From Bradyrhizobium guangxiense (GTDB taxonomy: Bacteria; Pseudomonadota; Alphaproteobacteria; Rhizobiales; Xanthobacteraceae): 64,000 bases of DNA. The translations under genes were made by a program, and so were the position numbers. Shown piece by piece: positions 11,277 to 48,057 of the stretch. Under the pieces are notes generated by a model. That model did not search any database. It saw only the letters and a list, made by a program, of their open reading frames with translations, and was not told the DNA's origin. Position 1 is the first letter of the stretch. Every line of letters starts with the position of its first letter. Location: contig NZ_CP022220.1 of assembly GCF_004114915.1 (NCBI RefSeq), positions 744,001 through 808,000 of the forward strand. The letters are read 5' to 3'.

Positions 11277-11278
11277 CC

Positions 11279-12475: not shown

Positions 12476-13128
12476 AGCGAATTCCGGAAGATGGCTGCGG
12501 CTCAGAATCGAAGAGGCGCTCCGGCTGCTTCATCGAAATAAATCCGTTCTCTTATGCCGGTATTGGCGGATGAAAAATTTAGAACTGGCAAATTTGGAAC
12601 TATGGGCAGGCAAACTATGCCGCGAGAGCTAAGCGGATCGTCCAGGTGGTCCACGGCCATGGATGCTCGCGTCATGTTCAACCGCGGCCTTCTTCGCATC
12701 CGTCGCAACTGGCCGACCACTGTCCACGCCGCCGGCCTTTATTCGGTATTGGCTATCCGTTGAGCCTACGGCTGGCCGTCTGACAACGAACTCGGCCCCC
12801 GCAACCGAATTGCTGCCGGAGCCGGAATTCACCTCGTCCAAATGCTTTCGCCATCAAACTGCAATCCCACGCCTCGTTCCATCGAACGTGGCTCACGGTG
12901 CTGTCGACGCAGATCAAGGCGCGCAGGCTCGGAGTGCCGAGGAGTCCGGGGGTGCAACGTAACAGTGCCGGGGACCACGCTCGTGCCGATCGGCAGAATT
13001 CAACCTGCGTCTCGGCATGTCGCTTTGAACAGCGTCAACATCGCATCGGCCCACATAGCGGTGCCCATTCCGCAATGCGTCCGTCTGATCGTATTGCGGT
13101 CTTTTTCGAATGAACTCAGAGCCTTGAT
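12476..13128. other. Gene-free stretch after fic remnant
   Basis: About 650 bp with only short ORFs in all frames and no recognised family. It is probably degraded accessory DNA. Confidence 0.35.
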
Positions 13129-13527
13129 TTAGGCTGCTTCTCCTATGAGTCTCTTCGCGGCCTGAGTTAGGAGGCCCGATCTCGTAAAGCCGTGCGCTTC
13201 AGCATATTTGTCGATCTGATTCAGAACGTCCTCAGGAAGGGTGACATTCACACGTATAGCCTTTGGTTGTTCGGGTTTGACCGACACCAAAATAGCTACC
13301 CCAGTTCGATGATCAGGATCTGCCATAACATCCTCTAGAGTAGAGGGCTCCGGAATGGCTTCTCCATCTTCAGCAAGACCCTCGATATGAAGGGTGAGGG
13401 CTTCCTCTGCCATAGCACGAGCGTCATCAAGGCTTTTGCCTGCCGTGATCACTCCGGGGAAGTCTGGAAATGAGACGCCGAAATCGCTGTCGGCATCCTT
13501 ATGGATAAGACCAATATAGTTACGCAT
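13129..13527 (-). CDS. hicB: HicB antitoxin
   Basis: A 132-residue antitoxin. Residues 1-60 form the HicB partial RNase-H-like fold (YIGLIHKDADSDFGVSFPDF, then GVITAGKSLDDARAMAEEAL). Residues about 88-130 form a ribbon-helix-helix DNA-binding domain (IRVNVTLPEDVLNQIDKYAE). It neutralises HicA and should bind the palindrome over the hicA start. It follows hicA by 5 bp and appears intact. Confidence 0.92.
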   Translation of the reverse strand: MRNYIGLIHKDADSDFGVSFPDFPGVITAGKSLDDARAMAEEALTLHIEGLAEDGEAIPEPSTLEDVMADPDHRTGVAILVSVKPEQPKAIRVNVTLPEDVLNQIDKYAEAHGFTRSGLLTQAAKRLIGEAA

Positions 13528-32099: not shown

Positions 32100-34634
32100 C
32101 TAGCGGACCGGAACGGCAATGGGCGGCGCAATCCGCGCTCGAGCCTCATTGTAGACCTCAATGATGCCTGGCATGGCTACGGTTACAGCAACGCCGAACG
32201 GAACTTGCTCGTCTATCTTGCTGCCTCTGTCAGGCTCGCGTTGAATGATCAGCTCGATTTCAGAATCGACTGTCAGAGCCGGCGCCTTGTCGCCCAGCCA
32301 GCGCCGAGAGAAAACGGTCCCCTTGCTTGCCTGATTGACATCAGGCTGCGTCTTGGATGGCTGCACGCGGAACTGATCGATCTCATCTGAACTCGCCAAA
32401 AGCGAAAGCTTCACTGAGCGATACGATTGTCGACCGGGATGCACGGGCGTGAACCATGCAAGCGTTGCGGTCACCGAGTGGGGGAGAGATTGGCCGCTCA
32501 TGCAAGCCGGTAACGGAACAACAACCGAACGTCTTGTCTCCTGCGCCAGCGTTCCGACGGCCCAAAACGTCGCCCTGTCGGAAGCGCAATAAATTGCATC
32601 GTCCGGACTAACAACGCCGTAGCCTAAGAAGCGCCGGATATTATCCTTCTGCCTGACGAATTGCTTTGCATCAGCTGGACCTAGCACGCTCTTGATGAGC
32701 TCGGCGCTATCTTGCGGCCACGAGGCTGTATGCACTAACAGCGCCTTGAGAAGCGCGGCGCGCTGATGGTGGGGCAGGGACAGAAAGTCCTGCCCGTACG
32801 TGTCTTCCAAAGCGTCATGAATTCTGTGAGCCGTCCTGGAGGCCAGAGCTGCCGCAGCACTTGTGCCGGAAGTGTAATGCTCCCAATTGCTGCTGCCCTC
32901 GCGCGGCGGAGCTGCAACCTTGAGCCCATGCGGTCGAGCAGGTCCACTTGGCCTTACAGCAAGCGCCGTTCCACTGGCCACCATGGTTAAATGCTCACGA
33001 GAGCCAGGCATCAAAATATCCGGTTTGACGCCGTTTGCAAATCCTGGACCCAATCCGCTGGATGGATTGGTGATGATCATCGGATGATACGGATCGACCC
33101 TGCCTCTAGCGCTACGGCGATCGGCTGCGCTAACGGCGTCGATATTGGCGGAGCCTACCGTGATCCCGTTCACTGTTTCCGACGGTGAAAGCAGCCGGCG
33201 AGAAGTGATCAATCGCGACAGCGCGGACAACGTATGTCTGGCCCGATCGGGCTGGTCCGTCGCTTCATAAGCAGCCATGGTGGGGATGGATGCTATCTCG
33301 AATGAGCCGGCGTGATTGCCGGCACTCACGCAGAACAGAATTCCATATCGATGGGCCAATCTGTCGACCAACCTCGCCCAGGGCGACAGCCGCCCATGAA
33401 ATGGCTTTCGGACATTGCCGAGCGAAAGATTGACGATCACAACTGACGGAGCGCTCGGATCGTCGTTGCGCCGCATCGAGACCACAGCTTGATAAACCAG
33501 GTCGACAATCAGCCGGTCCTCAGGAAATTGATCAGCAGCCCCCAAGAGCGGTATGCAATGGATGCGGCGCGCCAGCGGCGGCTCATTGGTGTTTCGGTCG
33601 CCATGCACGATCAGAGAAGCCATAGCTGTGCCGTGAGCCCTTTCAGCCACGACGGCTGCGCCCTCTAAATCGAATTGATCGTCGACATTCATTCGATCAC
33701 GAAGCAGAGGGTGCTGGGAAACGGGCACGCCATCCAATAAGGCCAAAATTGGTTGGCCTTCAGAAGGAAGCGGTCCCAGTCCGCCTTGGAGCTGACTGGC
33801 GTCTTCGACTTGCACCGGCGCAACAATACTCTGTGGCCGAATGTGCATGACCGGGTCCATGCCGCTCAACCCGGTCGCGGAGCGCTCGGTAATTTGCCGG
33901 ATCGCGGCAACTGGCAGGTTAGCCAAAAGGGCATGATAGGCGATGTCCGGGATCCGGCACTGCGTCACAAGAGTGCCACCGACCGCCCTAATCTCGCTGA
34001 TGACTCCTTGTTGGTTCGAAGCCGCCATGTCCTCCGACGATCGAAACACAAGCTCGATCTCAACGGGGAGAATTTCCTCATCTCCCATGAGCTCGATCTC
34101 GTGCGCAAGGATCTCTCGATCACCATCTTGAACACGATCTCCCGGCCCCCATACTCTGATGTCACGGAGCGTCGCAAAGACATCCCGCCAGGGTGCGAAC
34201 CCCTCCCCAATTGCTTGCCCGGATACCCATCTCTTCCAGAGCGACAGGATGTTCTGCAAAGCCGTGACATCTGGCACAAGAAGATAGGCCTCAGGCGACT
34301 TGTCCTTCTCATCGCCCTCCAGCTCCTCTTCATCGATGAGCTCCAGACCAGGCACTCTTCGGATCGCATTCGCAAAATTCGCAACTGCCCCCCGAACCTC
34401 AAAAACCAGCAGCCGCTCTGGCGCCAGCGCGGACGGGTCTGATCGCAAAGTTAAGCCGCTTGGGTCTCGACCCAAGACTTGTTCGAGGCGACGGAAGCGG
34501 GGGCCAAATGCTGCATTCTGTGCAGCAGCCGTGAATTTAGCCGGCCTGGGGATCGGTTGCGGCCTGCCTTTTGGTCTTGCCGCCTGATTGCCTGGCGTCA
34601 GTCGCAGCAGAGGCTTCGTTGGATCGGCCGCCAT
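32100..34634 (-). CDS. IetS-like subtilisin-family serine protease (toxin)
   Basis: An 844-residue S8-family protease without a signal peptide, so cytoplasmic. The catalytic triad is visible: D301 (LALLDGVPVSQHPLL), H334 (AHGTAMASLIVHGD), and S592 (YTSGTSAAAALASR), with the oxyanion asparagine in VSAGNHAG. About 280 N-terminal residues form an acidic and basic leader of unknown fold. It overlaps the upstream AAA-ATPase gene by 98 bp. A cytoplasmic subtilase paired this way with an AAA-ATPase matches the IetA-IetS plasmid-stability toxin-antitoxin system of Agrobacterium pTiC58, where the protease is the toxin. Subtilase/AAA pairs are also proposed in phage defence. Confidence 0.85.
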   Translation of the reverse strand: MAADPTKPLLRLTPGNQAARPKGRPQPIPRPAKFTAAAQNAAFGPRFRRLEQVLGRDPSGLTLRSDPSALAPERLLVFEVRGAVANFANAIRRVPGLELIDEEELEGDEKDKSPEAYLLVPDVTALQNILSLWKRWVSGQAIGEGFAPWRDVFATLRDIRVWGPGDRVQDGDREILAHEIELMGDEEILPVEIELVFRSSEDMAASNQQGVISEIRAVGGTLVTQCRIPDIAYHALLANLPVAAIRQITERSATGLSGMDPVMHIRPQSIVAPVQVEDASQLQGGLGPLPSEGQPILALLDGVPVSQHPLLRDRMNVDDQFDLEGAAVVAERAHGTAMASLIVHGDRNTNEPPLARRIHCIPLLGAADQFPEDRLIVDLVYQAVVSMRRNDDPSAPSVVIVNLSLGNVRKPFHGRLSPWARLVDRLAHRYGILFCVSAGNHAGSFEIASIPTMAAYEATDQPDRARHTLSALSRLITSRRLLSPSETVNGITVGSANIDAVSAADRRSARGRVDPYHPMIITNPSSGLGPGFANGVKPDILMPGSREHLTMVASGTALAVRPSGPARPHGLKVAAPPREGSSNWEHYTSGTSAAAALASRTAHRIHDALEDTYGQDFLSLPHHQRAALLKALLVHTASWPQDSAELIKSVLGPADAKQFVRQKDNIRRFLGYGVVSPDDAIYCASDRATFWAVGTLAQETRRSVVVPLPACMSGQSLPHSVTATLAWFTPVHPGRQSYRSVKLSLLASSDEIDQFRVQPSKTQPDVNQASKGTVFSRRWLGDKAPALTVDSEIELIIQREPDRGSKIDEQVPFGVAVTVAMPGIIEVYNEARARIAPPIAVPVR

Positions 34635-35613
34635 GCAGGTTCTCTGGCTTTACTCTCGATGACCAAAATTCGAGTTCAGTCTTGACCGCAGAATCGATCG
34701 AGATCTCACCAAGACCAAGAATTTGTCGCCGTCGAACGTTCTGACAGAAATCAAGCACTTCAGCATAGGAGGTTGCGTCAATCTTTTGCGCGAGTTCAAA
34801 AGCCGACAGCGAAGGGCGCTCGGGCCAGCCCATATAAATTCGTTCTATGAAATGTGCGATTTCCGCAACTTGCGGAGCGGGAAATGCAATCTTTATCTGA
34901 AAACGTCTCCATACGGCTCGATCAAGCAATTCAGCATGATTCGTAGCCGCTATTGTTACCACGTAACTGGGAAGTTTATCGATCTGCATCAAGAGAAACG
35001 AAACAACGCGCTTGATTTCGCCCGTTTCGTGATCATCTCCACGCTCTTTTCCAATCGCATCGAACTCGTCGAAAAACAAAACGCAAGGTTGGGTTCGCGC
35101 ATAGTCGAATAGCGCGCGAAGACGCGCGTTTGTTTCGCCTAGATAGCTTCCTACGAGCGCGTCGTACCGCACCACGAAAAACGGCAGAGAAAGGCCCTCT
35201 GCAATCGCTTCTGCAAAGGAAGTTTTGCCGTTGCCTGGAGGACCAGACAGGAGAACCCGATGCCGCGGCTCATATCCGCTTGCCCGCAGCACGTCTGCCC
35301 GCACATGCTCCTCGATCAGCTGCATCCCTTCGGCGCGCGCAGGCAAGGGTAAAACCAGCTCATCGAGAGATATGCGTGGCGTAACTTCTAAAATCGTGTC
35401 GCGCCCAGCAGCTTGCGGAGACCGCTGAGAGGCAACCAGACTTGGCGGCGTCACAGCTATCGTCTGCAGCGCTCGCTCAAGCCGATCGGCCAGCGCGTGA
35501 TGACTCTTTGCGCGCTCATCAGCCACAATCGCTTCGACCGCCGAGCGCATCATTGGCCGATCGCCGGTCACACCGGCGCGCACGAGAGATATGAGTAAGT
35601 CGCTCTTGGCCAT
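34537..35613 (-). CDS. IetA-like AAA+ ATPase (antitoxin)
   Basis: A 358-residue AAA+ ATPase, started at ATG 35613 (MAKSDLLISLVRAGVTGDRP). The N-terminal helical part holds the likely partner-binding region; Walker A is SGPPGNGKTS (123-132), Walker B CVLFFDEFDAIG (177-188), sensor-1 is in VVTIAATNHAELLDRAVWRR with the arginine finger nearby. In the IetAS system the ATPase restrains the protease. The 98-bp overlap with the protease gene implies strict co-expression. Confidence 0.85.
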   Translation of the reverse strand: MAKSDLLISLVRAGVTGDRPMMRSAVEAIVADERAKSHHALADRLERALQTIAVTPPSLVASQRSPQAAGRDTILEVTPRISLDELVLPLPARAEGMQLIEEHVRADVLRASGYEPRHRVLLSGPPGNGKTSFAEAIAEGLSLPFFVVRYDALVGSYLGETNARLRALFDYARTQPCVLFFDEFDAIGKERGDDHETGEIKRVVSFLLMQIDKLPSYVVTIAATNHAELLDRAVWRRFQIKIAFPAPQVAEIAHFIERIYMGWPERPSLSAFELAQKIDATSYAEVLDFCQNVRRRQILGLGEISIDSAVKTELEFWSSRVKPENLHGGRSNEASAATDARQSGGKTKRQAATDPQAG

Positions 35614-36228
35614 GACAGACAGCCTATTACAGGATTGCGCGCCCACGCTGCTAGAAATGGTCCCAGCTTGTGAACAACTCGCCGATAACCAAGGTTCCTT
35701 GCCGGGGTCGCTCGGCGAGCCTATCCGGCGGGGATTAACATATTGAAAAGCTGCAACAAATAAGACTTCTCGTCCGCCGTCATGACTGGTCGAGTCTGTT
35801 CTGCCTGCTCAAGCATTCCCCGTCATCCTGTTGACTGCCTGCCTCTGACAAAACTAGCCAGCCTTCATAGCTAGCGCCGACCGAAAGTCCGGCAGAGCCT
35901 TCGAGCACTCGCCTCGCGCGCTTTGGCGCTTTATGCCCATCCGAGAGGGGTCGTCAGGGGATTGTTCACTTTTTGTTCAATGCCGTCAAGTCGCAGTCCA
36001 ATACCGGCGTTCGACCTGTTCCGGAGCGAGAATCGTGAGCAAATGGATCAAGCCCACCGGGGGCGCCGATGCTCGTATCCGTGCATAGTCGAGCTGCTGC
36101 AAGCAATGGATGACCCTAATCCCTAAAAGGCGTTGGAATCGCATGCGCTGAACTTTCTCGCGTCGATGCAAATATTCACGGCCGCCGAGCAAAGTAGCCC
36201 CCTATCGAAAGTCATGGTCCCGATTGAC
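35614..36228. other. Gap between ietA-like gene and higA
   Basis: About 615 bp, presumably including the ietAS promoter. Short ORFs only, with no recognised gene. Confidence 0.35.
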
Positions 36229-36606
36229 CTAAGCCGCAACACTTCCGCTCGCGGAGATCAGCAAATCCGCTGGAATATGGAAACGTTCGCGCAGACGCTT
36301 CACCATCGTCATGCTCAATTCGCGCTTGCCGGACATGACCTCACTGACGCGACTAGCAGTGCCCAGAAGCGGCACAAGATCAGCGCGCGTCAAACCATGT
36401 TGTTCCACCAGATAGGTTAGCAAATCGGGCAACGGCGGCGCTTTGCGCGGCCAGCGTGCGCGTTCATAAGCCTCGATAAGGCGAGCCTGAGCTACCATAC
36501 GCGCTCGATCGGCAGCCTCGTTAGATTGCATCAGCTTGCCGACAAGCGCCTTGGCCGCCTCATGATCGGCCTGGTTCTGGATAATTATCAATGTTGCCTT
36601 CATCAC
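36229..36606 (-). CDS. higA: HigA-like XRE antitoxin
   Basis: A 125-residue antitoxin. The C-terminal helix-turn-helix (HGLTRADLVPLLGTASRVSE, then KRELSMTMVKRLRERFHIPA) matches the HigA family, whose DNA-binding domain follows a helical toxin-binding part. It begins within the higB stop (ATGA), giving the reversed toxin-first order of higBA. It should repress from the palindrome upstream of higB. Confidence 0.88.
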   Translation of the reverse strand: MMKATLIIIQNQADHEAAKALVGKLMQSNEAADRARMVAQARLIEAYERARWPRKAPPLPDLLTYLVEQHGLTRADLVPLLGTASRVSEVMSGKRELSMTMVKRLRERFHIPADLLISASGSVAA

Positions 36607-36914
36607 ACCGTCTCCGCGTCCACCTTGTCACAGTCTTCATGACTGCCGAAAAAGCGGATCATCAACACGCCATCACGATATTGAACCATGGCGATCAGGC
36701 GGTAGTCATTGGCCTTGATGTTGAACACCACGCGTCCGCCTTTCAGGATGCTTGCCTTGGGATGCGATCGCTTCACCTGTTGCGGCGTCCGCCAGTCCGA
36801 AGCCTCAGCAATTGCCAGCCATGCCCTGTATTGAGCGCGCGCTGCATCGATGCCCCGATGACCAGAGCGTTCGGCAAAATAGCGCTCACCAAGGTCCGTG
36901 CCGACCACCAGCAT
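36603..36914 (-). CDS. higB: HigB-like mRNA interferase toxin
   Basis: A 103-residue RelE-superfamily toxin (HigB_toxin type): WRTPQQVKRSHPKASILKGG, RVVFNIKANDYRLIAMVQYR, and the end VLMIRFFGSHEDCDKVDAET. Members cut mRNA on the ribosome. The N-terminus MLVVGTDLGERYFAERSGHR is slightly longer than the minimal family. There is no clear Shine-Dalgarno sequence. The start lies 20 bp below the large palindrome. Confidence 0.9.
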   Translation of the reverse strand: MLVVGTDLGERYFAERSGHRGIDAARAQYRAWLAIAEASDWRTPQQVKRSHPKASILKGGRVVFNIKANDYRLIAMVQYRDGVLMIRFFGSHEDCDKVDAETV

Positions 36915-37211: not shown

Positions 37212-37673
37212 CTAGGGAAGATTGGGCGGCTGACCAATTCGCTCCAGATCGGCGAGACACTTGTCCAGGTTGCTTTTGGCGTCCTGCAGGAACCTGCTCG
37301 TTTCGGCAAGCCGCCTGAGATCAGGCTTGACCGGTCCCTCGCTCACAGCGCTCAGCTGGTGGCAAACAGTTGCAAGATCACCCGAGATGTCTTCGAGGAC
37401 GAAGGCGAGGTTTTCCAGCGGCACGAGCTCCGAAAAGAAAGACTTCAAGGCGCTTTCGTCCTGGCCAGAGGGACCTTCGAATCTGACTTCGACCAGTGGC
37501 ACCAACACCTCGCGGTTGTCGCGCCCGACCCTTCCCATGCTCATGATGAGCGAGCTGAACGTCGTCGAAACAAAGGTCAACCGATCGAGCAGGGTGTTTC
37601 CATACAATACTAGCGATTCCGATTCGCCTTGCGCCTGCTCCGTTGTCGAAGCCCCGAGATCCTCATTCGACAT
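37212..37673 (-). CDS. Unrecognised 153-residue protein of the nitrilase-linked operon
   Basis: I do not recognise a family. The protein is acidic, starts MSNEDLGASTTEQAQGESES (low complexity) and is predicted mainly helical afterwards (SFFSELVPLENLAFVLEDIS, then RRLAETSRFLQDAKSNLDKC with heptad-like spacing). No membrane segment or catalytic motif is seen. Its start overlaps the winged-helix gene by 11 bp, so it is probably co-translated and perhaps physically associated with it. Confidence 0.6.
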   Translation of the reverse strand: MSNEDLGASTTEQAQGESESLVLYGNTLLDRLTFVSTTFSSLIMSMGRVGRDNREVLVPLVEVRFEGPSGQDESALKSFFSELVPLENLAFVLEDISGDLATVCHQLSAVSEGPVKPDLRRLAETSRFLQDAKSNLDKCLADLERIGQPPNLP

Positions 37674-38631
37674 GCTCGGAGTCCTCTCCTGCGCTCAAGT
37701 GCAGCATACCCGAAGGGAACGAGACGGGCTTTGGACTGTTCACCGCCTCAATCGATGTGGAGGCGCCGTGACCTTCGGCTTTCTTCACCTGCACGACCGT
37801 CCCCGACGAGCCATGATACGAGCTCTTCGTTCGCGCCTTCATATAGCCGGGAGCTGTCGGTGCCGGCGGATGAAGCAGGTAGTCCTCCATCACCTGACGG
37901 ACGCCAAGCGGGTCACGCATCACTAGTCCCGCCGCATGCAACGTAGGATGCATCGGGCTCGGCAAATCAAACAGGCTGCGAAGAACGACATTTTCTTCAG
38001 CCGTGAGGGCAGGGTGGGTTCTGAGACCCATTTTCCTGCGCATAAGCTGCGCCAATTGGCCAGCGCCCCTTGCTGTGGGCCCTTCGTGCCTTTCAAGCGC
38101 CATAAGGCCATCGCGCGTCAGCGCGAAATGAGCAAACTTTCCAGCCGCCGTTCGTTCCACAAAACGCGCATTGGTCATCAGGCGAAGAATGCGGCTGAGA
38201 TTGGCATCCTTCAGATCCAGTTTCTTAGCAATGACCGTCTTCTCCAGCTGACGCGACGGTGCATCCCGCAACAACCGAAGTATCTCGACGACATGCTGAC
38301 GGTGCATGACCTCGCTTGGACGAGCAACCTTGGCGGTGTTGATCGACATCTGCAGAAGATCGTAAAACGCTCTGAAGCGCTCGGCATAGGCGGCATTCTT
38401 CGGCGCGAGCGAGGCGCTCACCCGACGCAGAATATCAAACCATTCCCGCAGCTCCGGATCGCGGCGCCGGCTCTCCAGAGAATTCCAGAGCCAAGCCCCA
38501 AGTGTTGCGTAAATACGCTCCAGGCTGCTTTCGGATCCCTCTTTAAGGAATTCCGAAATGACGCTCCGCGCCTCAGTCGCGGTGGCCTCGCCGCTCTCTA
38601 TCTTTTCCAATGCTACGTCCGACATGGCCAT
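37663..38631 (-). CDS. Winged-helix (MarR-like) protein of unknown function
   Basis: A 322-residue protein whose middle (residues about 110-175) reads as a winged helix: HRQHVVEILRLLRDAPSRQL, then IAKKLDLKDANLSRILRLMT with a following wing. The N-terminal 100 residues are helical. The C-terminal third has two histidine/proline-rich loops and ends with a disordered tail. It resembles transcriptional regulators only in this domain. It lies 70 bp after the nitrilase-like gene and overlaps the next gene, which fits a sensor or effector-regulator role in one operon. This is inference. Confidence 0.6.
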   Translation of the reverse strand: MAMSDVALEKIESGEATATEARSVISEFLKEGSESSLERIYATLGAWLWNSLESRRRDPELREWFDILRRVSASLAPKNAAYAERFRAFYDLLQMSINTAKVARPSEVMHRQHVVEILRLLRDAPSRQLEKTVIAKKLDLKDANLSRILRLMTNARFVERTAAGKFAHFALTRDGLMALERHEGPTARGAGQLAQLMRRKMGLRTHPALTAEENVVLRSLFDLPSPMHPTLHAAGLVMRDPLGVRQVMEDYLLHPPAPTAPGYMKARTKSSYHGSSGTVVQVKKAEGHGASTSIEAVNSPKPVSFPSGMLHLSAGEDSEHVE

Positions 38632-38701: not shown

Positions 38702-40063
38702 TCACCGGCCCCATTTGTAGGCAGTCCAAACGGTCTTTTGACCGAGTTCCCGGGCGGAAACAGCGTTCGGCTCTTTGAGGAGGGGTAATATAGTACCAAG
38801 CCGGCCATCCCCGTAGCGGTTGTGGGTGGGATGTTGCACGACAAAACTTCGCGTGCCGAACTTCACTTCCACCTGGCTCGCAGTCGTCTGGTGGCCCTGC
38901 ATGGTGCGGTCGTTCCCCATCGAGGGGACCAGCATCACATCGACATCCAGGTCCCTGAAGGGCGTGTCGCAGACGTCACAGAAGTCGAGGCAAATTGCGA
39001 CGCCAATCAGGGCGCCTTCAGTCGCAAGCACGCACATCCGCTCGCCAGCAGTTATGTTTTCGATCCCCCAGTCGTCATCGGCGTAAGGGGCGATCTTGTC
39101 GTAGACGAGCCGCTCCTCGCCATAACCGTCATAAATCCGGGCCCGATTCACAATCTCCTTGCCTGCCACCTCGTGCCACGTTCCCGGAATGACGATCTCC
39201 GGAGGCTCCAGCGGGTCGGCCACATCTCGCTCGCGGATGAACTTGACGATCTTTTCTCGCAGTCCTGGTGGTACCGTGAGCTCGGGCCAGACGATTGCGA
39301 TGCAGTTCTCCTGCAACGCGTTCGCCATCTGAAGCAAGACCGCGTTCCCCGCCGCCGGCGCATCGACGCCGCTGACGATGAAACGCTTGTCCCCGTCTAC
39401 CGTTGCGAACTCCGCCTCAAGCTTGAGCGCCTCGAAAAGGCAGGCGCCCATTTTCCAATTCGTGGGGTCTTGAGCGGCACTATGCAAGGTACGGCTATCG
39501 ACCACCTCGACGGCATAGCCGTCAATGAAGGTGGGCAGGATCCGATGAAATAGCAGGCCTCGCTTTGAATAGGCTTGGCTCCGCCGGGCAGGGCGGCCGG
39601 CGCTCACGCCCTGTCGCGGAATGAACCAGCATCCGAGCGCCTCCAGGCGCCACTCGCCCGATGCAATCGGCCATTGCGACCGCCGCTCGAGCAGCACGCG
39701 GTCGATGGCCCGGATGAGACCTCCAAGCGACACAGCAACCTGCTCGGGGGTCTCCTCGGAAACGGACCAAAGGAGGCGGCCTTCTCCGACGCTGTCACCG
39801 AAACTCCGGGCAGATTCTTCAAGACGCCGCTCCGAAAGATTGCGGTAAGCCTTGTACACGCTCGGCGGCGCCTTGCGGAACAACTTGTCGAGCTCGATCA
39901 GAGCCTTCCTCAGTTCGTCCCTTCTGGCATGCGTCATCGAGGCCTGTGATTGAGCAAGCTCACCAGCTGCCTTCTTCCACTTGCCGAACTCCGTTGTCTT
40001 CAGGCGGCTGTCCGCAGGCCCAGGCAAACGACTCGTCCAAACGACTTCGCCAATATGTGCCAT
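38702..40063 (-). CDS. Nitrilase-superfamily (C-N hydrolase fold) protein with unusual N-terminal region
   Basis: A 453-residue cytoplasmic protein. The C-terminal half carries a credible Glu-Lys-Cys triad: E261 in AIVWPELTVP, K323 in VYDKIAPYADDDWG, and C358 in GVAICLDFCD. The 62- and 35-residue spacings match nitrilases. The first 220 residues (helical MTHARRDELRKALIELDKLF, then EWRLEALGCWFIPRQGVSAG) are not part of a known nitrilase. Nitrilase-fold domains also occur attached to reverse transcriptases in some phage-defence genes, but no transcriptase is present. It heads the three-gene operon and diverges from the exported-protease operon across 243 bp. Confidence 0.7.
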   Translation of the reverse strand: MAHIGEVVWTSRLPGPADSRLKTTEFGKWKKAAGELAQSQASMTHARRDELRKALIELDKLFRKAPPSVYKAYRNLSERRLEESARSFGDSVGEGRLLWSVSEETPEQVAVSLGGLIRAIDRVLLERRSQWPIASGEWRLEALGCWFIPRQGVSAGRPARRSQAYSKRGLLFHRILPTFIDGYAVEVVDSRTLHSAAQDPTNWKMGACLFEALKLEAEFATVDGDKRFIVSGVDAPAAGNAVLLQMANALQENCIAIVWPELTVPPGLREKIVKFIRERDVADPLEPPEIVIPGTWHEVAGKEIVNRARIYDGYGEERLVYDKIAPYADDDWGIENITAGERMCVLATEGALIGVAICLDFCDVCDTPFRDLDVDVMLVPSMGNDRTMQGHQTTASQVEVKFGTRSFVVQHPTHNRYGDGRLGTILPLLKEPNAVSARELGQKTVWTAYKWGR

Positions 40064-40306
40064 TGATAGGCGTACGGTTCGCTATTTGCAATCGGCCCGA
40101 CTGTGACTTACGCGCGTCTCATCATCTAGCTGCGGGCGCAGTTGCTCTGAATGTCAGAACGCGCAGAAACTCTGCATCGAATTATACGATGGCAACGAAA
40201 AGCTGCATATGGCTTCCGATACTCTTGACGAAGCACGAGCAAAGCATTTCAATCTGGGCGGGAGATCCGCGCGCGAGCGACGCGAAGCGGACAGGGGGCA
40301 CAATCG

Positions 40307-41395
40307 ATGTGGAAGATCAGCCGGGCCGCGGCTTGCCTTGGCGCCTGCTTTGCGATGGGCGGATGCCCCAGCCTGTACTATGTGCACGATCCGCAGACTG
40401 GCGTGATCACAGCCGGCGAACTGCCATATTTTCTCAAATCGATCCGGTGCGAGGTCGTCACCTTTTATCAGATCGAGCGCGAAAGGCGGAAGCACTACCT
40501 CAAGATCTACAAGACCAGGCCGGAAGAGGCGTTCGACCGCTTCGCCCATTTCGACATCGACCCGTTCCTATACGGCACCTTCTTCCTGGAACTGAAAGTA
40601 ACCGATACCGGCGGTGTCGGGTCCGGCACCGCCTTCGACTATAAGCGCGTTCTAAGTGCCACCACCGCCGAAGTGACCCATGTCGGCCCCACGGCTTCGG
40701 CGCAGGACACCTACGACCTGATCTGGTCATTTCTCTTGAAACAGAATGCCGAGCTTGCGTCTGATACCTTGCCGCTGGCATCTAGCCCGGCAACATATGA
40801 GCGCGGCTGCTACCGGGGAACGCCGACCGAGCTCCTCGAGCTCGAAGCTCTCGCCGAAAACAAATATCCGGAACGGGCCGCTTTCAAGCGCATCACCGTC
40901 GATGCCTCCAAGCCATTGGCGGCCTGGCTGCGCGACAATGCAATTTTGATCGCCGCCAACAACCTGACGCCGGCTATGCCATCGGAAATAGCTGAGCCAG
41001 CGCAGATGACCTATACTTTTTCGATCCAAGTGACCGGAGGCATCGAGGCCAAATACTCCCTTACATCGGCGCGCTGGACACCGGCCGCCATCCAAGCCTC
41101 CGCATCTGCGCAGCAATTCAGCAATCTCGGTATCTACATCAATGGGCCGAATGCCGTCTTGGCCAACGGAGCAAAGTCTGGCTCGGCCAGCTATGCAGCC
41201 AAACAGCCGGCGCTCGGATCAAAGGACAATCCGATTTACACGACACCAATCCCGGGAGGGGAAAAGTCGCAGGAGTTGCCGGAGAGCGGGGGGGCCGCAG
41301 CCCGCCGGCCAAGGGCTGGTGGTGGCCCGCGGACGAACGGCTTTATCTTCGCGCCGGTGCCAGTCTTCCCGCCATCTCCAACGCCTACTCAATAA
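40307..41395 (+). CDS. Exported lipoprotein of unknown function
   Basis: A 362-residue lipoprotein with an ideal N-terminus: MWKISRAAACLGACFAMGGC, lipobox cysteine at C20. ACAGGGGG precedes the start. The mature part shows no recognised family; it is beta-rich with a repeat-like QVTGGIEAKYSLTSA stretch, and the C-terminal 60 residues are Gly/Pro-rich (AGGGPRTNGFIFAPVPVFPP). It is first of four exported proteins on this strand and probably serves as anchor or substrate for the proteases that follow, which is inference. Confidence 0.7.
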   Translation: MWKISRAAACLGACFAMGGCPSLYYVHDPQTGVITAGELPYFLKSIRCEVVTFYQIERERRKHYLKIYKTRPEEAFDRFAHFDIDPFLYGTFFLELKVTDTGGVGSGTAFDYKRVLSATTAEVTHVGPTASAQDTYDLIWSFLLKQNAELASDTLPLASSPATYERGCYRGTPTELLELEALAENKYPERAAFKRITVDASKPLAAWLRDNAILIAANNLTPAMPSEIAEPAQMTYTFSIQVTGGIEAKYSLTSARWTPAAIQASASAQQFSNLGIYINGPNAVLANGAKSGSASYAAKQPALGSKDNPIYTTPIPGGEKSQELPESGGAAARRPRAGGGPRTNGFIFAPVPVFPPSPTPTQ

Positions 41396-41398
41396 AAC

Positions 41399-42073
41399 AT
41401 GACTCGTTACTGCCTGCTCGGATTGCTGGTTCTTCTCGTGCTCCTCCCCTGCAGCAGCGCGAAGGCTCAGCCTGCGCTTCCCTCAGGGGTGTCGGAGATG
41501 GAGCTCTTCGGAACTGTGATCCGCAGCTCCAAATGGGACGTGAAGGAAATCCCGGTCTGCTGGGAAAACCTCAATCCTCATGACCAGAAATATGCAGAAC
41601 TCGTCCGAAAAGCCGTGGCCGAGACCTGGGAAAGCGCAGCACAAGGAGGCGTTTGGTTCGCCAAGACCTGGCCTGCCTGTAAAGAGGGCGCAGCCGGCGT
41701 CCATGTGCGCATCGCCGACGAGGGCGCGCACACCGACGTCGTCGGCAAGTATCTCGATGGCAAGTCTTCGGGCATGACCTTGAATTTCAGCTCCAATCAT
41801 TGGAGTAAAGGATGCATCAATAAGCGCGAATTCTGCATTCGTGCGGTCGCTGTCCACGAATTCGGGCACGCGCTCGGCTTTACTCACGAGCAGAACCGCG
41901 ACGATGCTCCGGAACAGTGCCGCAACGAGAAATTTTCAGGATCGGTCGGCGACTACAAAGTCACTAAATACGACCCCAATTCCATCATGAACTATTGTAA
42001 TCCAGCATGGAACGGAAGCGGACAACTCAGCCCACTCGATATCGCAGCCGTCAGAACGTTTTATCCGTCCTGA
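41399..42073 (+). CDS. Exported metzincin-type zinc metalloprotease
   Basis: A 224-residue secreted protease. A signal peptide (LLGLLVLLVLLPCSSAKAQ) precedes a catalytic domain with the full zinc site HEFGHALGFTHE (H153, H157, H163; E154 catalytic) and the Met-turn SIMNYC with Met197. Six cysteines may form disulfides. The metzincin clan includes astacin, matrixin and related families; assignment to one is uncertain. It starts 3 bp after the lipoprotein and its end overlaps the next start by 67 bp. Confidence 0.82.
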   Translation: MTRYCLLGLLVLLVLLPCSSAKAQPALPSGVSEMELFGTVIRSSKWDVKEIPVCWENLNPHDQKYAELVRKAVAETWESAAQGGVWFAKTWPACKEGAAGVHVRIADEGAHTDVVGKYLDGKSSGMTLNFSSNHWSKGCINKREFCIRAVAVHEFGHALGFTHEQNRDDAPEQCRNEKFSGSVGDYKVTKYDPNSIMNYCNPAWNGSGQLSPLDIAAVRTFYPS

Positions 42074-43248
42074 CCCTCGCCTTGCTCTTTGTCATCTCCG
42101 GGCAGGCGCTAGCCGATCGCGCCGCGGTGCAGATCGCCGCGCGCTATAACGTCAGGACTGTTCATGTCCAGTTTGTCGGCGTTATGTACAACGGCAAGCA
42201 GGAAGTCGGAGGCGGCTCCGGCCTTCTGATCGGCGACAACCTCGTGCTCACCAACAGCCATGTGGTCGGACGCGAGGAAAACTACAAGAGCTTTGAGGTC
42301 GATGCTCGCCTTGGCTCGCGCAACGCAAACCCAATCAAAGTCAGCGCGATTCACCGCGACGACGCCAACGATCTTGCCCTTCTCGAGTTGGCCCAGCCGG
42401 CCAGCAACAGCGGCGGAGCATCGCGCTGCCCAATGCCGGTCATCAATGAAAGCCAGCAGGCCCCAATGGGAACCCAACTCTATCTGCTCGGCTATCCCCT
42501 CGACCTGGATCTGAGCATATCGAGCGGCCTGATCAGCAATCAAACCAGCCCAAATGGGCGCTGGCAAACCGATACTGTCATGAACGTCGGCAACAGCGGA
42601 GGTCCCGCGTTCAACGAGTTCGGCGCGCTCCTCGGTATCGCTGTCGGCGGCATCGTCAAATGGAACGATGCCCAGGTCAACGGAGTGAATTTCATCATTC
42701 CTGCCACGGTCATAGCCGCGAGTCCGCTCTACAAGCTGATTGCGGCTATCCCCCAACCATCCGTCTGCTGGACCAAATGGGTCGACACTACAATCTCATT
42801 CGAGAACTGGAGCAAGCTCAACTCGACCCATGTGCAGACGCAAGCCAATCAGGGCGTGAAAATTCCCGAGATCCTGGCCGGCGCGCTTCACACGTTGCTT
42901 CCAGAAGACCGGCGGCTCATCGTCAATGTTCCGCTATCGCAACTCGTCGAGCTCAAGCAGATCGAGCGCTCATACACCGTCGACAAGACCAAGGATGATC
43001 ATCCCGTCGTGTTTGCCGAGCATTCGGCCGACTACGCCGAGACGTTCCCAGCCGAGCCGGGCTACCGTATCACCGGCTGCTCCTGGCATGTCGAGACGGC
43101 AAACGGAGCCGGCAACATTGCTTGCGCCATCAACGATGGCGGTGCAGAGGCGCGCTTCACCTACAAGCTGACCAGTGGACCCGCCGTCGATCGGTACCGT
43201 GGATGGCTCGGTGCTACCGTCAATCTATCTCAAGTTCTTGCGAAGTAA
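42007..43248 (+). CDS. Exported trypsin-like (DegP/HtrA-type) serine protease
   Basis: A 413-residue protein. The leader RSRQNVLSVLTLALLFVISG ends near ALA at 36. The trypsin-fold triad is H85 (LTNSHVVG), D122 (DDANDLALLEL), and S197 (GNSGGPAF). The fold resembles DegP but there is no recognisable PDZ domain. Residues about 250-413 form an unrecognised C-terminal module, with cysteines at WHVETANGAGNIACAINDGG. It overlaps the metzincin gene by 67 bp, so the two proteases are made together. Confidence 0.85.
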   Translation: MERKRTTQPTRYRSRQNVLSVLTLALLFVISGQALADRAAVQIAARYNVRTVHVQFVGVMYNGKQEVGGGSGLLIGDNLVLTNSHVVGREENYKSFEVDARLGSRNANPIKVSAIHRDDANDLALLELAQPASNSGGASRCPMPVINESQQAPMGTQLYLLGYPLDLDLSISSGLISNQTSPNGRWQTDTVMNVGNSGGPAFNEFGALLGIAVGGIVKWNDAQVNGVNFIIPATVIAASPLYKLIAAIPQPSVCWTKWVDTTISFENWSKLNSTHVQTQANQGVKIPEILAGALHTLLPEDRRLIVNVPLSQLVELKQIERSYTVDKTKDDHPVVFAEHSADYAETFPAEPGYRITGCSWHVETANGAGNIACAINDGGAEARFTYKLTSGPAVDRYRGWLGATVNLSQVLAK

Positions 43249-43260
43249 GGAGGAGGGGCC

Positions 43261-44610
43261 ATGGTCGTCTCGACATTGCGAGCCGATTCTTCAAATGCGC
43301 TGCACTGGCTCTCGTCGTTCCGGCAGCTCCGCGCGGCTTTAATTGCTCTGGTCTGCATGTTTGTCGTCGGCTGCGCTCATCAAGCACCTATCTCGAGACC
43401 GTCAAAGCCCCAAGCCCAAAACACGCATCAGCACCACGGGCGTGCATTGACAGGATATCACCATCATGCCGCAAGGTATTACGGCCCGAGGTATTATGGT
43501 CCGAGACGCCATGATTATGGCTATCATCGCCCCACAACGGGTGAGGCAAGTGAGGAAGCACCTCCCGAGAAACCGACGCCAACTGGCGCCGAGGCTCCCA
43601 ACAAGCCCGCCATCAAGGGCTTGGTGCCCGTTTATTTTGCGACCAACCGCGAGGTGATGGGAGGCCCGAATCTGCAGCTGAAACAGATCACCTATGATCG
43701 TTCGGCCACGAATACCTATGGCTGCGTGACTGTGAGCATACCGATCGTTCACAAGATGGGCGAAGTCGAAACGCCAAAGACATATCTGTACGGCATTTGG
43801 ACAGAGGCCGAGCAGGACGGAAAGCACTTTCGAATCCAGACTCTATCGAAGCTCTCACGAGAGGAGTTTGCCTCCGCGATCGCCAATCCTGCCGACAGCC
43901 TGATGCTGTTCGTCCATGGCTACAATGTTCCTTTCTCGGATGCAGCGTTCAAGGCCGCTCAGATTGCCTTCGATGCAAATTACAAGGGCCGCGTCATGAT
44001 TTATTCCTGGCCCTCGAAAGGCGGGTTGGCGGATTACGATTACGACCGCGAAAGTGCTTTGCATGCCACCGATGGATTGTTCGATCTTCTCAAGCTCATC
44101 AAGACGGAGGGGAACGTTTCGCGGATCATCCTGATCGCACACAGCCTTGGCAGCGAAGTGGTATTGGGCGCCTTGCAGCAGGCAGCGCTGAGCCAAACAG
44201 CGCTTGGCATTACCGAGCTGATTTTCGCAGCACCCGACGTCGACCGTGACCTCTATCTGGAGCGGGCTAACCAGATCAAAGCGGCCGCGGGTGCGGTGAC
44301 CGTGTACGCCTCGTCAACTGATCTGGCTCTGCTCGCCTCGATGAAGAAGGCGCAGTCGAAATCGCGAATGGGCTATGTGACTAAGAGCGGTCCAACTCTC
44401 GTCTCGGGCATCGAGACGATCGATGTCTCTGCGGTCGGAAGCGAAATGTTCGCGCTCAATCATAGTACCTATTCAACGAGCCGGGCGGTCCTCGACGATA
44501 TCGGCCGGATCATCTCCTCATCTAGCCACCTCAAGCCACCGCAGCGGACCCCAACTTTGCGCTCGATGCCTAACGAGCTCAACGCGACCTATTGGATGTA
44601 TCCTTACTAG
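43261..44610 (+). CDS. DUF900-type alpha/beta hydrolase, exported
   Basis: A 449-residue protein with a strong AAGGAGG site. An N-terminal hydrophobic segment ends in a possible lipobox (MFVVGC, C38). Residues 56-90 are a His/Tyr-rich linker (YHHHAARYYGPRYYGPRRHD). The DUF900 catalytic core follows: LMLFVHGYNVPF near 215-225, the nucleophile S295 in LIAHSLGSEV, the aspartate region FAAPDVDRDLYLERA, and the histidine near FALNHSTYS. Members are serine hydrolases with unknown substrates. The stop TAG coincides with the end of an IS630 element; without the insertion a TAG would still form here. Confidence 0.85.
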   Translation: MVVSTLRADSSNALHWLSSFRQLRAALIALVCMFVVGCAHQAPISRPSKPQAQNTHQHHGRALTGYHHHAARYYGPRYYGPRRHDYGYHRPTTGEASEEAPPEKPTPTGAEAPNKPAIKGLVPVYFATNREVMGGPNLQLKQITYDRSATNTYGCVTVSIPIVHKMGEVETPKTYLYGIWTEAEQDGKHFRIQTLSKLSREEFASAIANPADSLMLFVHGYNVPFSDAAFKAAQIAFDANYKGRVMIYSWPSKGGLADYDYDRESALHATDGLFDLLKLIKTEGNVSRIILIAHSLGSEVVLGALQQAALSQTALGITELIFAAPDVDRDLYLERANQIKAAAGAVTVYASSTDLALLASMKKAQSKSRMGYVTKSGPTLVSGIETIDVSAVGSEMFALNHSTYSTSRAVLDDIGRIISSSSHLKPPQRTPTLRSMPNELNATYWMYPY

Positions 44611-45792
44611 TCATCTGGAACGCAAGTTCATCACATTAGTTGATGGCTCGAATCTTTGTAGAGGAGAGCGCTTGTGGGGAATGCAGGTGTGAGAGGCCGG
44701 CCGATCGCGCCGTTAGTGCTCAGTCCGCAGGAGCGCACGTACCTAGAGAGGCAAGTTCGTCGTCATCGTGTCGCGCGGTGCTATCTGAGCGATGCCGCGC
44801 GATCCTGCGATGTGCGGATGGCCTGCCAAGCAAGTCTGTGGCTGCTGAACTCGGCATCCATGAACACACCGTTGGCAAGTGGCGCCGTCGGTTTTTTTAG
44901 AAGGATCGCTGTGATGGCCTGCTTGATGAAGCCCGCCCGAGCCGCCCTCGCACCATCGACGACGATCAGGTTGCTGAGGTAATCGAGCGGACATTGCGTA
45001 CGACGCCGGCCGACGCGACGCACTGGTTGATCCGCTCGATGGCTGCGGAAACTGGCTTTTCCCACACCACGATCCGCCGAATGTGGTCGGCGTTCAGCTT
45101 GCAACCGCACCGTAGCCAGACATTCAAGTTGTCGAGCGATCCACTGTTCGTCGACAAGGTACATTGTCGGCCTTTATCTATCCCCACCGAACCGAGCCGT
45201 TGTCCTCAGCGTTGATGAGAAAGCCAGATCCTGGCACTCGATCGCGAGCAGCCGGTCTTGCCGATGATGCCTGGGATGCCAGAACGTCGCACGCACAGTT
45301 ATGTGCGACATGGCACGACCACACTGTTTGCCGCGCTCGATGTCGCTTCCGGCTTTGTCATTGGCAAATGCTACAAGCGTCATCGGGCGGTCGAGTTCTT
45401 GAAGTTCCTCAAGGAAATCGACGCTCAAATCCCCGAGGGGCTTGCGGTCCACATCGTCATGGACAACTACGCCACCCACAAGACACCTAAGATCAAGGCG
45501 TGGCTCGCTCGCCGGCCGCACAACCATGTCCACTTTACGCCGACTTCCGCGTCATGGATCAATCAGAACGAGCGCTGGTTCGCTGAACTCACCAGAAAGC
45601 AGATCCAGCGAGGTGTTCACACCTCCGTCAGACAGCTCGAGGCCGACATCCGTACCTTCATCGAACTGCACAACAATAACCCGAGGCCCTTCAAATGGAC
45701 CAAGTCTGCAGACCAGATCTTGGCTTCCGTCAAACGCTTCTGCCACAAAGCCCAGCAGACTTTATGCGGCGAACTTTAGATTCACGTGACTA
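44608..45792 (+). mobile_element. IS630-family insertion sequence, degenerate
   Basis: A 1,185-bp element. Its ends begin TAGTCA and continue with matching bases (16 of 22 agree, including AAGTTC), and each end finishes in TA, the IS630 target dinucleotide. It holds one broken transposase gene on the plus strand. The left end lies exactly on the stop codon of the DUF900 gene. Confidence 0.75.
44674..45779 (+). pseudogene. IS630 transposase, multiply disrupted
   Basis: Recognisable pieces of an IS630 DDE transposase lie in different frames. RPIAPLVLSPQERTYLERQV precedes a frameshift near 44790. The helix-turn-helix part (LPSKSVAAELGIHEHTVGKW) ends in an in-frame TAG at 44898. DGLLDEARPSRPRTIDDDQ and GFSHTTIRRMWSAFSLQPHR follow. 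A 5-bp loss lies near 45170 and a 1-bp loss near 45225. The catalytic C-terminus then continues intact (LFAALDVASGFVIGKCYKRH, VHIVMDNYATHKTPKIKAWL, ASWINQNERWFAELTRKQIQ). It cannot be active. Confidence 0.88.
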
Positions 45793-46389: not shown

Positions 46390-47721
46390 ATGGACCTGAC
46401 TGTAGAAACTTTCATAGAAGGCACGTGGCACGAGGCGGCCATTGTCAACTTGGAAGCCCCCGAAAAGGGCTACACGACGCCTTCCAGAACTAGCTACGAA
46501 ATGGGCTATTTTGCCAAGTTCGGCGCCATTCCATTTGCGGAAGACCGTCCCCTTAAAGGCGTACATGCTTACTCGATCAACGCCCCAGTCGATCTGGTGG
46601 ATCGCGCAGCAAGCACCTGGCCAGCTTTTCTACTGGACCTAATTCCTCAAGGTCACCACGCCGAGAGGATCGCGCGATTTCTGAACCTTCCGGTCGAGGC
46701 GCCTTCTACCCAAGTCCATCTTCTCATGAGAGCTGCGAGTTCTCCCGTCGGCAATATTCGCATCAAAGAAGCATATGATCAGGAGGTCGAACGTCTTCAG
46801 GACATATCGGTCGCGGGAATCACTATGGAAGAAATTCTCGATCGGAGCGATGCGTTTCTCGAAGTTGCTGATCGCTTTTCCTTGCTTGCCTCGGGTTCGA
46901 GTGGGCTGCAAGGTGACTGGCCCAAGGTGTCACTGACTCGCTCCCGAGACGGACTTTGGTATCCGAATTCGATGGTCCCGGACGCGGACGCCCTCGAATT
47001 TATCATCGTAAAGCTTCTGCGTAGTGATGAGCCGGTGGATCAGCGGATCCTGGAGTCTGAATCGGGCTATTCGGTGGTCGCAAAAGAGTTTGGCGTCAAC
47101 GTCGAACGCACGAGCACCTACGGCAATGGTGTGCTTGTCATTCCACGGTTTGACCGCAGGGTGACGTCGGGTGGTCTAATCCGCTACGGACAAGAGAGTC
47201 TGGTCTCTGCGATTGGCGTTGCGGAGTTTGCATTTCAGAGCAGGCACGAAACTTATCTGAAAACAATCCAACAGGTCTCGTCGTGTCCGCTGGAGGACAC
47301 GACGGAGTATCTGCTGCGAGATGTCTTGAACCTGGCTATGGGCAATCCCGATAATCATGGTCGAAACGCCGCGCTTAGAAAATTCCCGGATGGAAGCATA
47401 CGTCTCGCCCCCTTGTTCGATTTCGCACCAATGAAGATCGCGACAGCGGGCATCGTCCGTTCCACAAGGTGGGGGTGCATGCTCGATGGTGGAGGACAGG
47501 ACACCAATCCTGATTGGAGGCTCGTCTGTGAGACAGTTTCTAGCCCCAAGGTGCCCGCCCACAAATTGATGTCCGCTTTGGCAGCTAAGGAAGATCTTCT
47601 CCGGGCCCTTCCAGAGATTGCAAGAAAGTGCGGCGTGCCGGTCTCCGTCGTGACGAATGCAATCATTCGCAACGAAGATATGGCGAACGGTGTTGCCAAA
47701 CTGCGCAATGTGACAGATTAG
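46390..47721 (+). CDS. HipA-like kinase toxin, second copy
   Basis: A 443-residue HipA homologue distant from the one at 9-10 kb. Key blocks are FLLDLIPQGHHAERIARFLN in the N-terminal part, SLLASGSSGLQGDWPKVSLT, the catalytic AMGNPDNHGRNAAL and metal site LAPLFDFAPMKIA. The conserved P-loop is less canonical than in the first copy. Here the toxin comes first and the antitoxin second, unlike the first module. Confidence 0.85.
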   Translation: MDLTVETFIEGTWHEAAIVNLEAPEKGYTTPSRTSYEMGYFAKFGAIPFAEDRPLKGVHAYSINAPVDLVDRAASTWPAFLLDLIPQGHHAERIARFLNLPVEAPSTQVHLLMRAASSPVGNIRIKEAYDQEVERLQDISVAGITMEEILDRSDAFLEVADRFSLLASGSSGLQGDWPKVSLTRSRDGLWYPNSMVPDADALEFIIVKLLRSDEPVDQRILESESGYSVVAKEFGVNVERTSTYGNGVLVIPRFDRRVTSGGLIRYGQESLVSAIGVAEFAFQSRHETYLKTIQQVSSCPLEDTTEYLLRDVLNLAMGNPDNHGRNAALRKFPDGSIRLAPLFDFAPMKIATAGIVRSTRWGCMLDGGGQDTNPDWRLVCETVSSPKVPAHKLMSALAAKEDLLRALPEIARKCGVPVSVVTNAIIRNEDMANGVAKLRNVTD

Positions 47722-47730
47722 GCGAGCCTC

Positions 47731-48057
47731 ATGGCCAGATGGCGTAAACCTACGAAAGAGGAGATCCGAGATCGTCGCGCCGCAATTGCAGCCAAAGCGC
47801 GCGCGGGTACTCTCCGCTTGCCGGAGGCTGTCGCCGAGATGCGTCAAGCCCTCGGGCTCACCCAGATTGAGTTCGCCCGACTGTTTAAGCTGACACCGCG
47901 CCAAGTCGCCGACATTGAAAGAGGAGCGGCCAATCCTACTGCGCAAACGCTAGACAAAATAGGTCGCGCATTCGGTTTCCAAATCGGCTTTATTCCGATC
48001 GCTGCTGGGGCGACAACGGCCTCTCGCGAAGATGAGAAATCTGCCGGGCCACATTGA
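47731..48057 (+). CDS. XRE-family antitoxin partner of the second HipA
   Basis: A 108-residue DNA-binding protein 9 bp after hipA. The helix-turn-helix is LGLTQIEFARLFKLTPRQVA followed by DIERGAANPTAQTLDKIGRA, preceded by a helical N-terminus rich in Arg/Lys (WRKPTKEEIRDRR). It is probably both antitoxin and repressor at the palindromes upstream. Confidence 0.82.
   Translation: MARWRKPTKEEIRDRRAAIAAKARAGTLRLPEAVAEMRQALGLTQIEFARLFKLTPRQVADIERGAANPTAQTLDKIGRAFGFQIGFIPIAAGATTASREDEKSAGPH

Follow-up and report, generated by a model that had tools for sequence, protein, structure and literature searches.

The four-gene cassette and its products

We analysed a window of 64,000 nucleotides of Bradyrhizobium guangxiense DNA (NZ_CP022220.1, positions 744,001 to 808,000), in which an earlier note, made from the sequence, had described an operon of four exported proteins. 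Positions 40307-44610 of the window hold four compact open reading frames on the plus strand (Table 1), called here, in their order, LP (predicted lipoprotein), MZ (metzincin), SP (serine protease) and AB (alpha/beta hydrolase). LP and MZ are separated by 3 bases and SP and AB by 12 bases, and MZ and SP overlap by 67 bases if the first ATG of SP is assumed. The tightly spaced or overlapping reading frames of the earlier note were thus all present, and the motifs listed there (HEFGHALGFTHE with the Met-turn SIMNYC, H85/D122/S197 and AHSLGS) were all verified. In RefSeq the products are named hypothetical protein, M12 metallopeptidase, serine protease and alpha/beta hydrolase, respectively. The RefSeq starts of MZ (41498) and SP (42082) lie later than ours and drop most of the signal sequences, but relatives keep hydrophobic N-termini ahead of the same conserved MZ segment. 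In the following, G and L numbers are our labels for genomes and loci.

Table 1. Positions in the window of the cassette genes, the divergent genes and the candidate upstream elements
Feature	Position	Strand	Description
LP	40307..41395	+	362 aa, hydrophobic start, lipobox AMGGC, no Pfam family over cut-off
MZ	41399..42073	+	224 aa, predicted secreted astacin-type metzincin, HEFGHALGFTHEQNRDD, Met-turn SIMNYC, six conserved Cys
SP	42007..43248	+	413 aa, predicted secreted HtrA/DegS-like serine protease, triad H85/D122/S197
AB	43261..44610	+	449 aa, DUF900 (PF05990) alpha/beta hydrolase, lipobox VVGC, nucleophile AHSLGS, His/Tyr-rich linker
Divergent gene 1	38702..40063	-	453 aa, nitrilase-like by eye: E in WPELTVP, K in YDKIAPY, C in GVAICLDFCD
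Divergent gene 2	37663..38631	-	322 aa, sub-threshold winged-helix/MarR-like matches, candidate regulator (helix-turn-helix)
Divergent gene 3	37212..37673	-	153 aa, no Pfam match
Candidate operator	40166..40206	+	direct repeat GAAAAnCTGC, copies 31 bases apart
Candidate -35 element	40225..40229	+	TTGAC

The metzincin carries the zinc signature HExxHxxGxxHE and the SxMxY Met-turn in 19 of 19 aligned sequences (the window and 18 relatives). Like the astacins (M12A), which share these two elements, it scores over the Pfam cut-off of Astacin (PF01400; 29.7 bits, cut-off 22.5). It differs from them in also passing the Matrixin cut-off (29.4 bits, cut-off 24) and in having MMP-14 as its best PDB sequence match (E 5.6e-5), and because of these two results the subfamily of the predicted metzincin is given provisionally. 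For an inhibitory propeptide there would be room of only about 20 residues, from the likely signal cleavage site to the catalytic region, which starts at about residue 41-45.

SP matches Trypsin_2 with 73.5 bits (cut-off 27.6) and also exceeds the cut-off of Trypsin. The His-Asp-Ser triad is kept in 18 of 18 aligned sequences, and in a further comparison H85, D122 and S197 were invariant in 17 of 17. The structure model consists of a DegS-like domain (DegS/DegP structures, best E 5.8e-13) and a C-terminal beta-sandwich (residues ~318-411). The protease domain thus resembles HtrA/DegS in fold match and triad, whereas the PDZ domain of those proteins was not found in SP by Pfam at E 0.1, its C-terminal part being modelled as the beta-sandwich. 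The NCBIfam Do-family model gave 63.6 bits, with a cut-off of 416.2. A word-based search of 5.8 billion proteins with residues 245-413 returned 15 relatives only.

The assignment of AB to the DUF900 hydrolases, made in the earlier note, was confirmed by Pfam (156.2 bits, cut-off 20.5). Its nucleophile motif (AHSLG or AHSMG, Ser being the nucleophile) is kept in 14 of 14 aligned sequences, and its lipobox Cys, which is predicted to be lipidated, in 11 of 11 cassette copies. Because AB, like LP, has a lipobox, the cassette would encode two lipoproteins.

The lipobox of LP had been called ideal. Its Cys20, the predicted lipidation site, is indeed there, and at least 90% of 29 relatives have it, but the sequence AMGGC is not an ideal one. 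LP also has an invariant Cys48-Glu49 pair and a conserved Pro-rich C-terminal end. In the model, whose mean predicted local distance difference test score (pLDDT) is 66.8, the protein forms two halves, each made of a helix and a long hairpin. Comparison with Pfam gave PAN_4 alone, below threshold (E 0.088). Trypco2 (PF19631) was considered for LP on account of a likeness seen by eye, a helix followed by long strands and 'LRxEL' versus 'RCEL', and was rejected: it was not among the Pfam families matched by the 29 LP sequences at E 1, and the profile-profile comparison (hhalign) was not significant (N-terminal half, P 0.013-0.015, probability ~3%; whole profile, P 0.054).

Conservation in Bradyrhizobium

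The LP profile matched 24 of 265 Bradyrhizobium genomes, and LP at 82% identity or more was present in 17 genomes, which we call carriers. In a search across the order the profile matched 3 of 397 genomes, one of them, weakly, outside the genus. The order LP-MZ-SP-AB is kept in 17/17 carriers; it was read directly in 15, and in G593 and G594 it was taken from the positions of LP, MZ and SP which agree, and from a 100% match over the full 4304 bases in the plasmid records that have the same coordinates. Six plasmid records of ~980 kb, from peanut isolates of B. guangzhouense, B. guangdongense and relatives, match the cassette DNA at 100%, and a seventh record matches it at 95.4%. Seven of the 17 carriers share the near-identical cassette, six of them on the ~980-kb plasmids; counting one of the seven leaves 11 non-identical loci.

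In all 11 loci MZ and SP share exactly 67 bases, and the start of SP lies 1693-1701 bases past that of LP. AB starts ~10-12 bases after SP in most of them, other start choices being possible in some, and in G628 about ten residues at the end of AB are encoded in a different frame. The median ratio of non-synonymous to synonymous substitution rates (dN/dS) relative to the window, in 10 pairs, was 0.064 for LP, 0.082 for MZ, 0.044 for SP and 0.067 for AB; dS exceeded 1, and these ratios are therefore rough. Since all four genes are under purifying selection and their order is kept, the cassette is more than a chance arrangement. These results support the four genes as one unit. Free variation of the neighbours among relatives, named in the earlier note as a finding that would speak against its claim, was looked for in the Bradyrhizobium genomes, where the order proved constant in all 17 carriers.

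Decayed copies also occur. MZ and SP pieces with interrupted frames, mostly at 78-88% identity, were found in G005, G058, G072, G122, G545 and G538, those of G005 and G122 being read directly. In G142 SP is whole, MZ is cut and AB is in pieces, with no LP seen, and G572 has fragments of the cassette.

Association with nodulation genes

In the plasmid record NZ_CP030054 the cassette is located at 577-581 kb, after a region (~476-526 kb) that contains nodA, nodB, nodC, nodU, nodI, nifA, nifD, nifK, nifE, nifN, nifB, nifH and fix-type genes. The distribution of the cassette was compared with that of NodA, which had matches in 94 of 146 genomes, 84 strong (E <1e-89) and ten weak. All 11 carriers of the 146-genome set were among the 84 genomes with a strong match (P 0.0017). 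With the five genomes of this set that have decayed copies the figure was 16/16 (P 7e-5). In a second search, of 12 genomes, nodA was likewise present in each of six further carriers and of three further genomes with decayed copies, so that overall it was present in 17/17 carriers and in 8/8 genomes with decayed copies.

Cassette and nodA are on one contig in 14 genomes (7.8-11.4 Mb), six of them with both on the 980-kb plasmid, and the distance between them is 96-333 kb. Grouping these genomes, by our own judgement, into six lineages gave a combined P of 4e-4 for the distance, and 4e-4 also when the plasmid lineage was left out. The cassette thus goes with nodulation DNA, a linkage newly found here: it belongs to Bradyrhizobium nodulation plasmids and, likely, to chromosomal nodulation islands.

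Related lipoproteins beside other peptidases

Outside the cassette the parts occur in other combinations. A trypsin-like gene follows MZ in six of the seven other intact Bradyrhizobium MZ loci read (G024, G031, G114, G623, G638 and, by motif, G575), the seventh being G580. The lipoproteins near these MZ-SP pairs differ: G031 has a 401-aa protein of a second type, LP-B, and G114 a protein of a 279-aa type, and no lipoprotein was noticed at the MZ loci read in G623, G638 and G575. In G580 a 489-aa LP-B relative adjoins MZ. In the plasmid pSJ05684b of Sinorhizobium sojae (L042, 5093-8231) an MZ relative of 57.6% identity stands behind genes for a 532-aa subtilase-like protein and a 251-aa exported-looking protein and has no SP after it; this plasmid comes from another nodule isolate.

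LP relatives, in turn, were found with a caspase and a trypsin (G553), with a trypsin, a subtilase and an LCAT-like hydrolase (G438, G014), with a trypsin, a CHAT protein and a subtilase (G055) and with a subtilase (G538). On the chromosome of G593 the partners are a Tle1-like hydrolase and a metzincin whose scores stay below the Pfam cut-offs. Different lipoproteins also take the same place: between the subtilase and LCAT-like genes stands LP in G438 and G014 and LP-B in G044 and G009, and downstream of the caspase and trypsin genes lies LP in G553 and, in G096, a 311-aa lipoprotein. Parts of the same kinds recur, in recombined form, in these further gene sets for exported peptidases. The loci L077, L029, L113 and L114 can be described as a distinct set, trypsin-subtilase-lipoprotein-LCAT-like hydrolase, with two lipoprotein types in one slot. 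In L082 (G538; it matches the B. barranii plasmid NZ_CP086137), at 8196-13388, a transposase-like gene interrupts the LP relative, which has a trypsin-like protein (by eye) on one side and a subtilase on the other.

A peptidase was encoded within 4 kb of the lipoprotein in 7/9 loci of the LP type, in 5/8 of LP-B and in 3/33 of the short LP-B relatives (Fisher test, 1.4e-4 and 0.003). The count covered 40 loci picked from a larger list of matches, and 11 others; its MZ matches in L118 and L136 were by motif only. It favours the LP type, because the reference peptidases came partly from LP-type loci, and the 7/9 are not drawn from nine independent cases, because L029/L077 and L030/L082 are related sets. 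The short LP-B relatives (~270-350 aa, with the C-E motif described below) were seen in many of the 46 matched among 146 Bradyrhizobium genomes, mostly without a nearby peptidase.

LP, LP-B and the 279-aa type have in common a lipobox followed by C-E-(L/V). The C-E motif was present in 8 of 22 lipobox reading frames screened in the fetched loci, all 8 belonging to these types, most of which had been fetched as LP relatives. Comparison of the LP (LP-A) and LP-B profiles with signal sequences included gave P 3e-5 in one run and 3.7e-4 in another, and 0.041 without them; the control with reversed columns gave 5.8e-4, and among 60 column shuffles the best value was 0.0068. Because the controls score comparably, we do not claim homology, and the common ground of the two types is the lipobox, the C-E motif and the gene settings. 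LP-B and the 279-aa lipoprotein of L101 gave P 8e-7, signal sequences included and with no control. The LP-B (L099-type) profile, likewise, was not significantly similar to Trypco2 in hhalign.

Divergent genes and upstream elements

Three genes on the minus strand are divergent from the cassette (Table 1). The nitrilase-like gene had no Pfam match at E 0.1 and no PDB match at E 1, and one weak match to the CARF-nitrilase model of PADLOC (E 0.009). In 6 of the 11 non-identical loci it has its full length; in the other five (G107, G055, G094, G127 and, near a contig end, G060) it is partial or frameshifted, while the four cassette genes stay open. In G572 the reverse is seen: the trio is whole and the four cassette genes have decayed. 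As the trio can be broken with the cassette open, and the other way round, the four cassette genes do not need the divergent trio.

Both copies of the GAAAAnCTGC repeat are exact in 9/11 loci; the first copy in the window has one mismatch. The candidate -35 element lies 75-82 bases ahead of the start of LP in 11/11 loci. Control by a nod box was considered and rejected, since only core matches with one or two mismatches, which are unconvincing, were found in 8/11 loci. No tts box, sigma-54 site or NifA site was seen in the 260 bases ahead of LP.

Proposed function

We propose, as a tentative reading that we hold at a little short of an even chance, that the products of this cassette of nodulation plasmids and, likely, islands cooperate as a proteolytic unit that is anchored by lipoproteins and works in the periplasm or on the cell surface. 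All four proteins would leave the cytoplasm by the Sec pathway, LP and AB becoming lipid-anchored. LP might serve as a membrane anchor or adaptor for the proteases, a role suggested by the recurrence of such lipoproteins beside exchangeable peptidases. SP, an HtrA-like protease in which a beta-sandwich replaces the PDZ domain, and MZ would cut proteins or peptides that reach the envelope, and AB could remove ester groups or cut lipids at the same place. The divergent helix-turn-helix protein may regulate the operon by binding the 31-base-spaced repeat. The linkage with nodA makes a plant-related setting more likely, without pointing to a target; because of it, the likeliest setting seems to be the envelope as a site of conflict or negotiation while the bacterium lives with the plant, in the nodule or in the competition around it, rather than housekeeping. 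Host peptides, rivals, phage and self are all candidate targets. In a broader and more doubtful version, lipoproteins with the C-E motif would form a shared chassis in the envelope on which exported peptidases (astacin, HtrA-like, trypsin, subtilase, caspase, CHAT) can replace one another. Such an arrangement would correspond, outside the cytoplasm, to the peptidase conflict systems inside it, and one version of it would have become cargo of legume nodulation islands.

Several results weigh against these proposals. Secretion, lipidation, formation of a complex and cleavage are all predictions, and the envelope or extracellular role put forward in the earlier note likewise comes from signal sequences and lipoboxes only, while its description of the genes as one unit was supported. 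Two of the nine LP-type loci have no peptidase within 4 kb: on the chromosome of G000 (L020, near a contig end) and in G630 (L083) the LP relatives stand beside a PLD-like gene recognised by eye, with a weak Pfam match in G630 and none in G000. Genome counts overstate independence, because seven carriers share a near-identical cassette. Drafts with cassette and nodA on different contigs make up the other 11 of the 25 genomes and give no distance information. The cassette is carried by 11 of the 84 strong-nodA genomes and is decayed in eight genomes; it is thus accessory and not needed for nodulation. LP relatives at ~50% identity are found in G014 and G438, which have no NodA match, and the wider LP family is therefore not symbiotic. 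Finally, the accessible text of a Tn5 screen (PMC7324677) reports seven genes, none named there as part of the cassette. In the LP relative of L020 (G000 chromosome, 7217869-7218981; 37%), a second one in G000, the lipobox Cys is replaced (GGGAS); the relative in G630 keeps its lipobox.

Instead of an anchor or adaptor, LP could be an inhibitor that shields the envelope of the producer from MZ and SP, on the model of Inh/AprI, a periplasmic inhibitor made with serralysin. LP is the first gene of the operon, its model, of moderate confidence, is partly beta-rich, and MZ has no obvious long prodomain. LP-type lipoproteins, however, adjoin metzincin, trypsin, caspase, subtilase and CHAT genes, and because these neighbours differ in catalytic type a shared partner fits better than a specific inhibitor, which we consider unlikely. 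Alternatively, the four genes could simply encode secreted hydrolases, transcribed together, that scavenge nutrients or maintain the quality of the envelope. This would agree with the fold of the SP protease domain, which is closest to DegS/DegP, and with the frequent occurrence of such proteases and esterases in soil bacteria. The patchy distribution (any LP match in 24/265 genomes), the nodulation linkage, the lack of a PDZ match in SP and its rare C-terminal domain (15 relatives) all speak against such a housekeeping role, which we regard as improbable.

Two further alternatives start from the genomic setting, and we regard both as improbable. The cassette could cut host nodule peptides, nodule-specific cysteine-rich (NCR)-like or other antimicrobial ones, on their entry into the bacteroid envelope. 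This would suit the nod/nif linkage and the peanut isolates among the carriers; 55 NCR-like genes of peanut are tabled in the part of PMC12461094 available, and the accessible text on HrrP, a plasmid-borne Ensifer peptidase that cuts NCR peptides (PMC9325427), provides a precedent. Similar parts are present, however, in genomes without nodA (G014, G031), HrrP is of an unrelated peptidase family (M16), and some carrier species come from hosts not known for NCR peptides. The cassette could otherwise serve envelope defence against phage or predators, the region being a cluster of defence and toxin-antitoxin genes within the symbiosis plasmid. IetAS, HigB/XRE and HipA genes do flank it, and the caspase, CHAT, trypsin and subtilase sets resemble the conflict systems described in the available part of PMC7159879. 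But PADLOC at E 0.01 matches none of LP, MZ and AB, and SP through its protease domain only; no NTPase gene is conserved with the cassette; and IetAS and HipA were not seen in the fetched flanks of carriers whose LP is 82-86% identical.

Relation to described systems

The peptidase-rich conflict systems, which we consider the nearest described kin of the cassette, centre on NTPases and act inside the cell. Both share a logic of varied peptidases with a partner. Pfam matched no NTPase family among the seven recurring genes (cassette and trio). As far as the accessible text of PMC7159879 describes them (Trypco partners; caspase with alpha/beta-hydrolase), these systems are similar in combining several peptidase types with a partner family and a hydrolase, and their trypsin, caspase and subtilase types recur here beside LP-type genes; the cassette differs in having no conserved NTPase, four predicted export signals and an LP that is not Trypco2 by Pfam. 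The nuclease-protease pairs of antiviral systems, in the part of PMC12799240 available, likewise contain a trypsin-like protease that is recurrently paired, the pair being acquired by different systems, but there the partner is a metallo-beta-lactamase-fold nuclease proenzyme and here it is a metzincin with predicted lipoproteins. HrrP (PMC9325427) is an accessory, plasmid-carried rhizobial peptidase too. It is a single peptidase, of the M16 type, whereas the cassette has four genes with predicted export of their products.

No PADLOC system covers all four proteins. The remark in the earlier note that no named system has this exact set held in searches of Pfam, NCBIfam, PADLOC and open-access full texts, and no description of the cassette was found in the open-access literature, a scope outside which most subscription papers lie. 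For nodulation DNA the cassette would be a novel type of protease module. The cargoes linked with nodulation, which may influence how rhizobium and legume meet, would then include a set of several enzymes with predicted export. If a lipoprotein does recur as the partner of such different peptidases, proteins at present annotated as hypothetical would gain a function.

Flanking genes

On the minus strand at 32100-35646 the window, part of a symbiosis plasmid, contains the anti-phage pair IetAS (PADLOC, IetA E 2.6e-164; the subtilase IetS E 1.5e-277). By RefSeq names, genes for a HigB-type toxin and an XRE antitoxin (36229-36914) and for a HipA-domain and a helix-turn-helix protein (46390-48057) flank the cassette. 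Pieces of a transposase-like reading frame, of the IS630 type by eye, follow immediately after AB (44674-45779).

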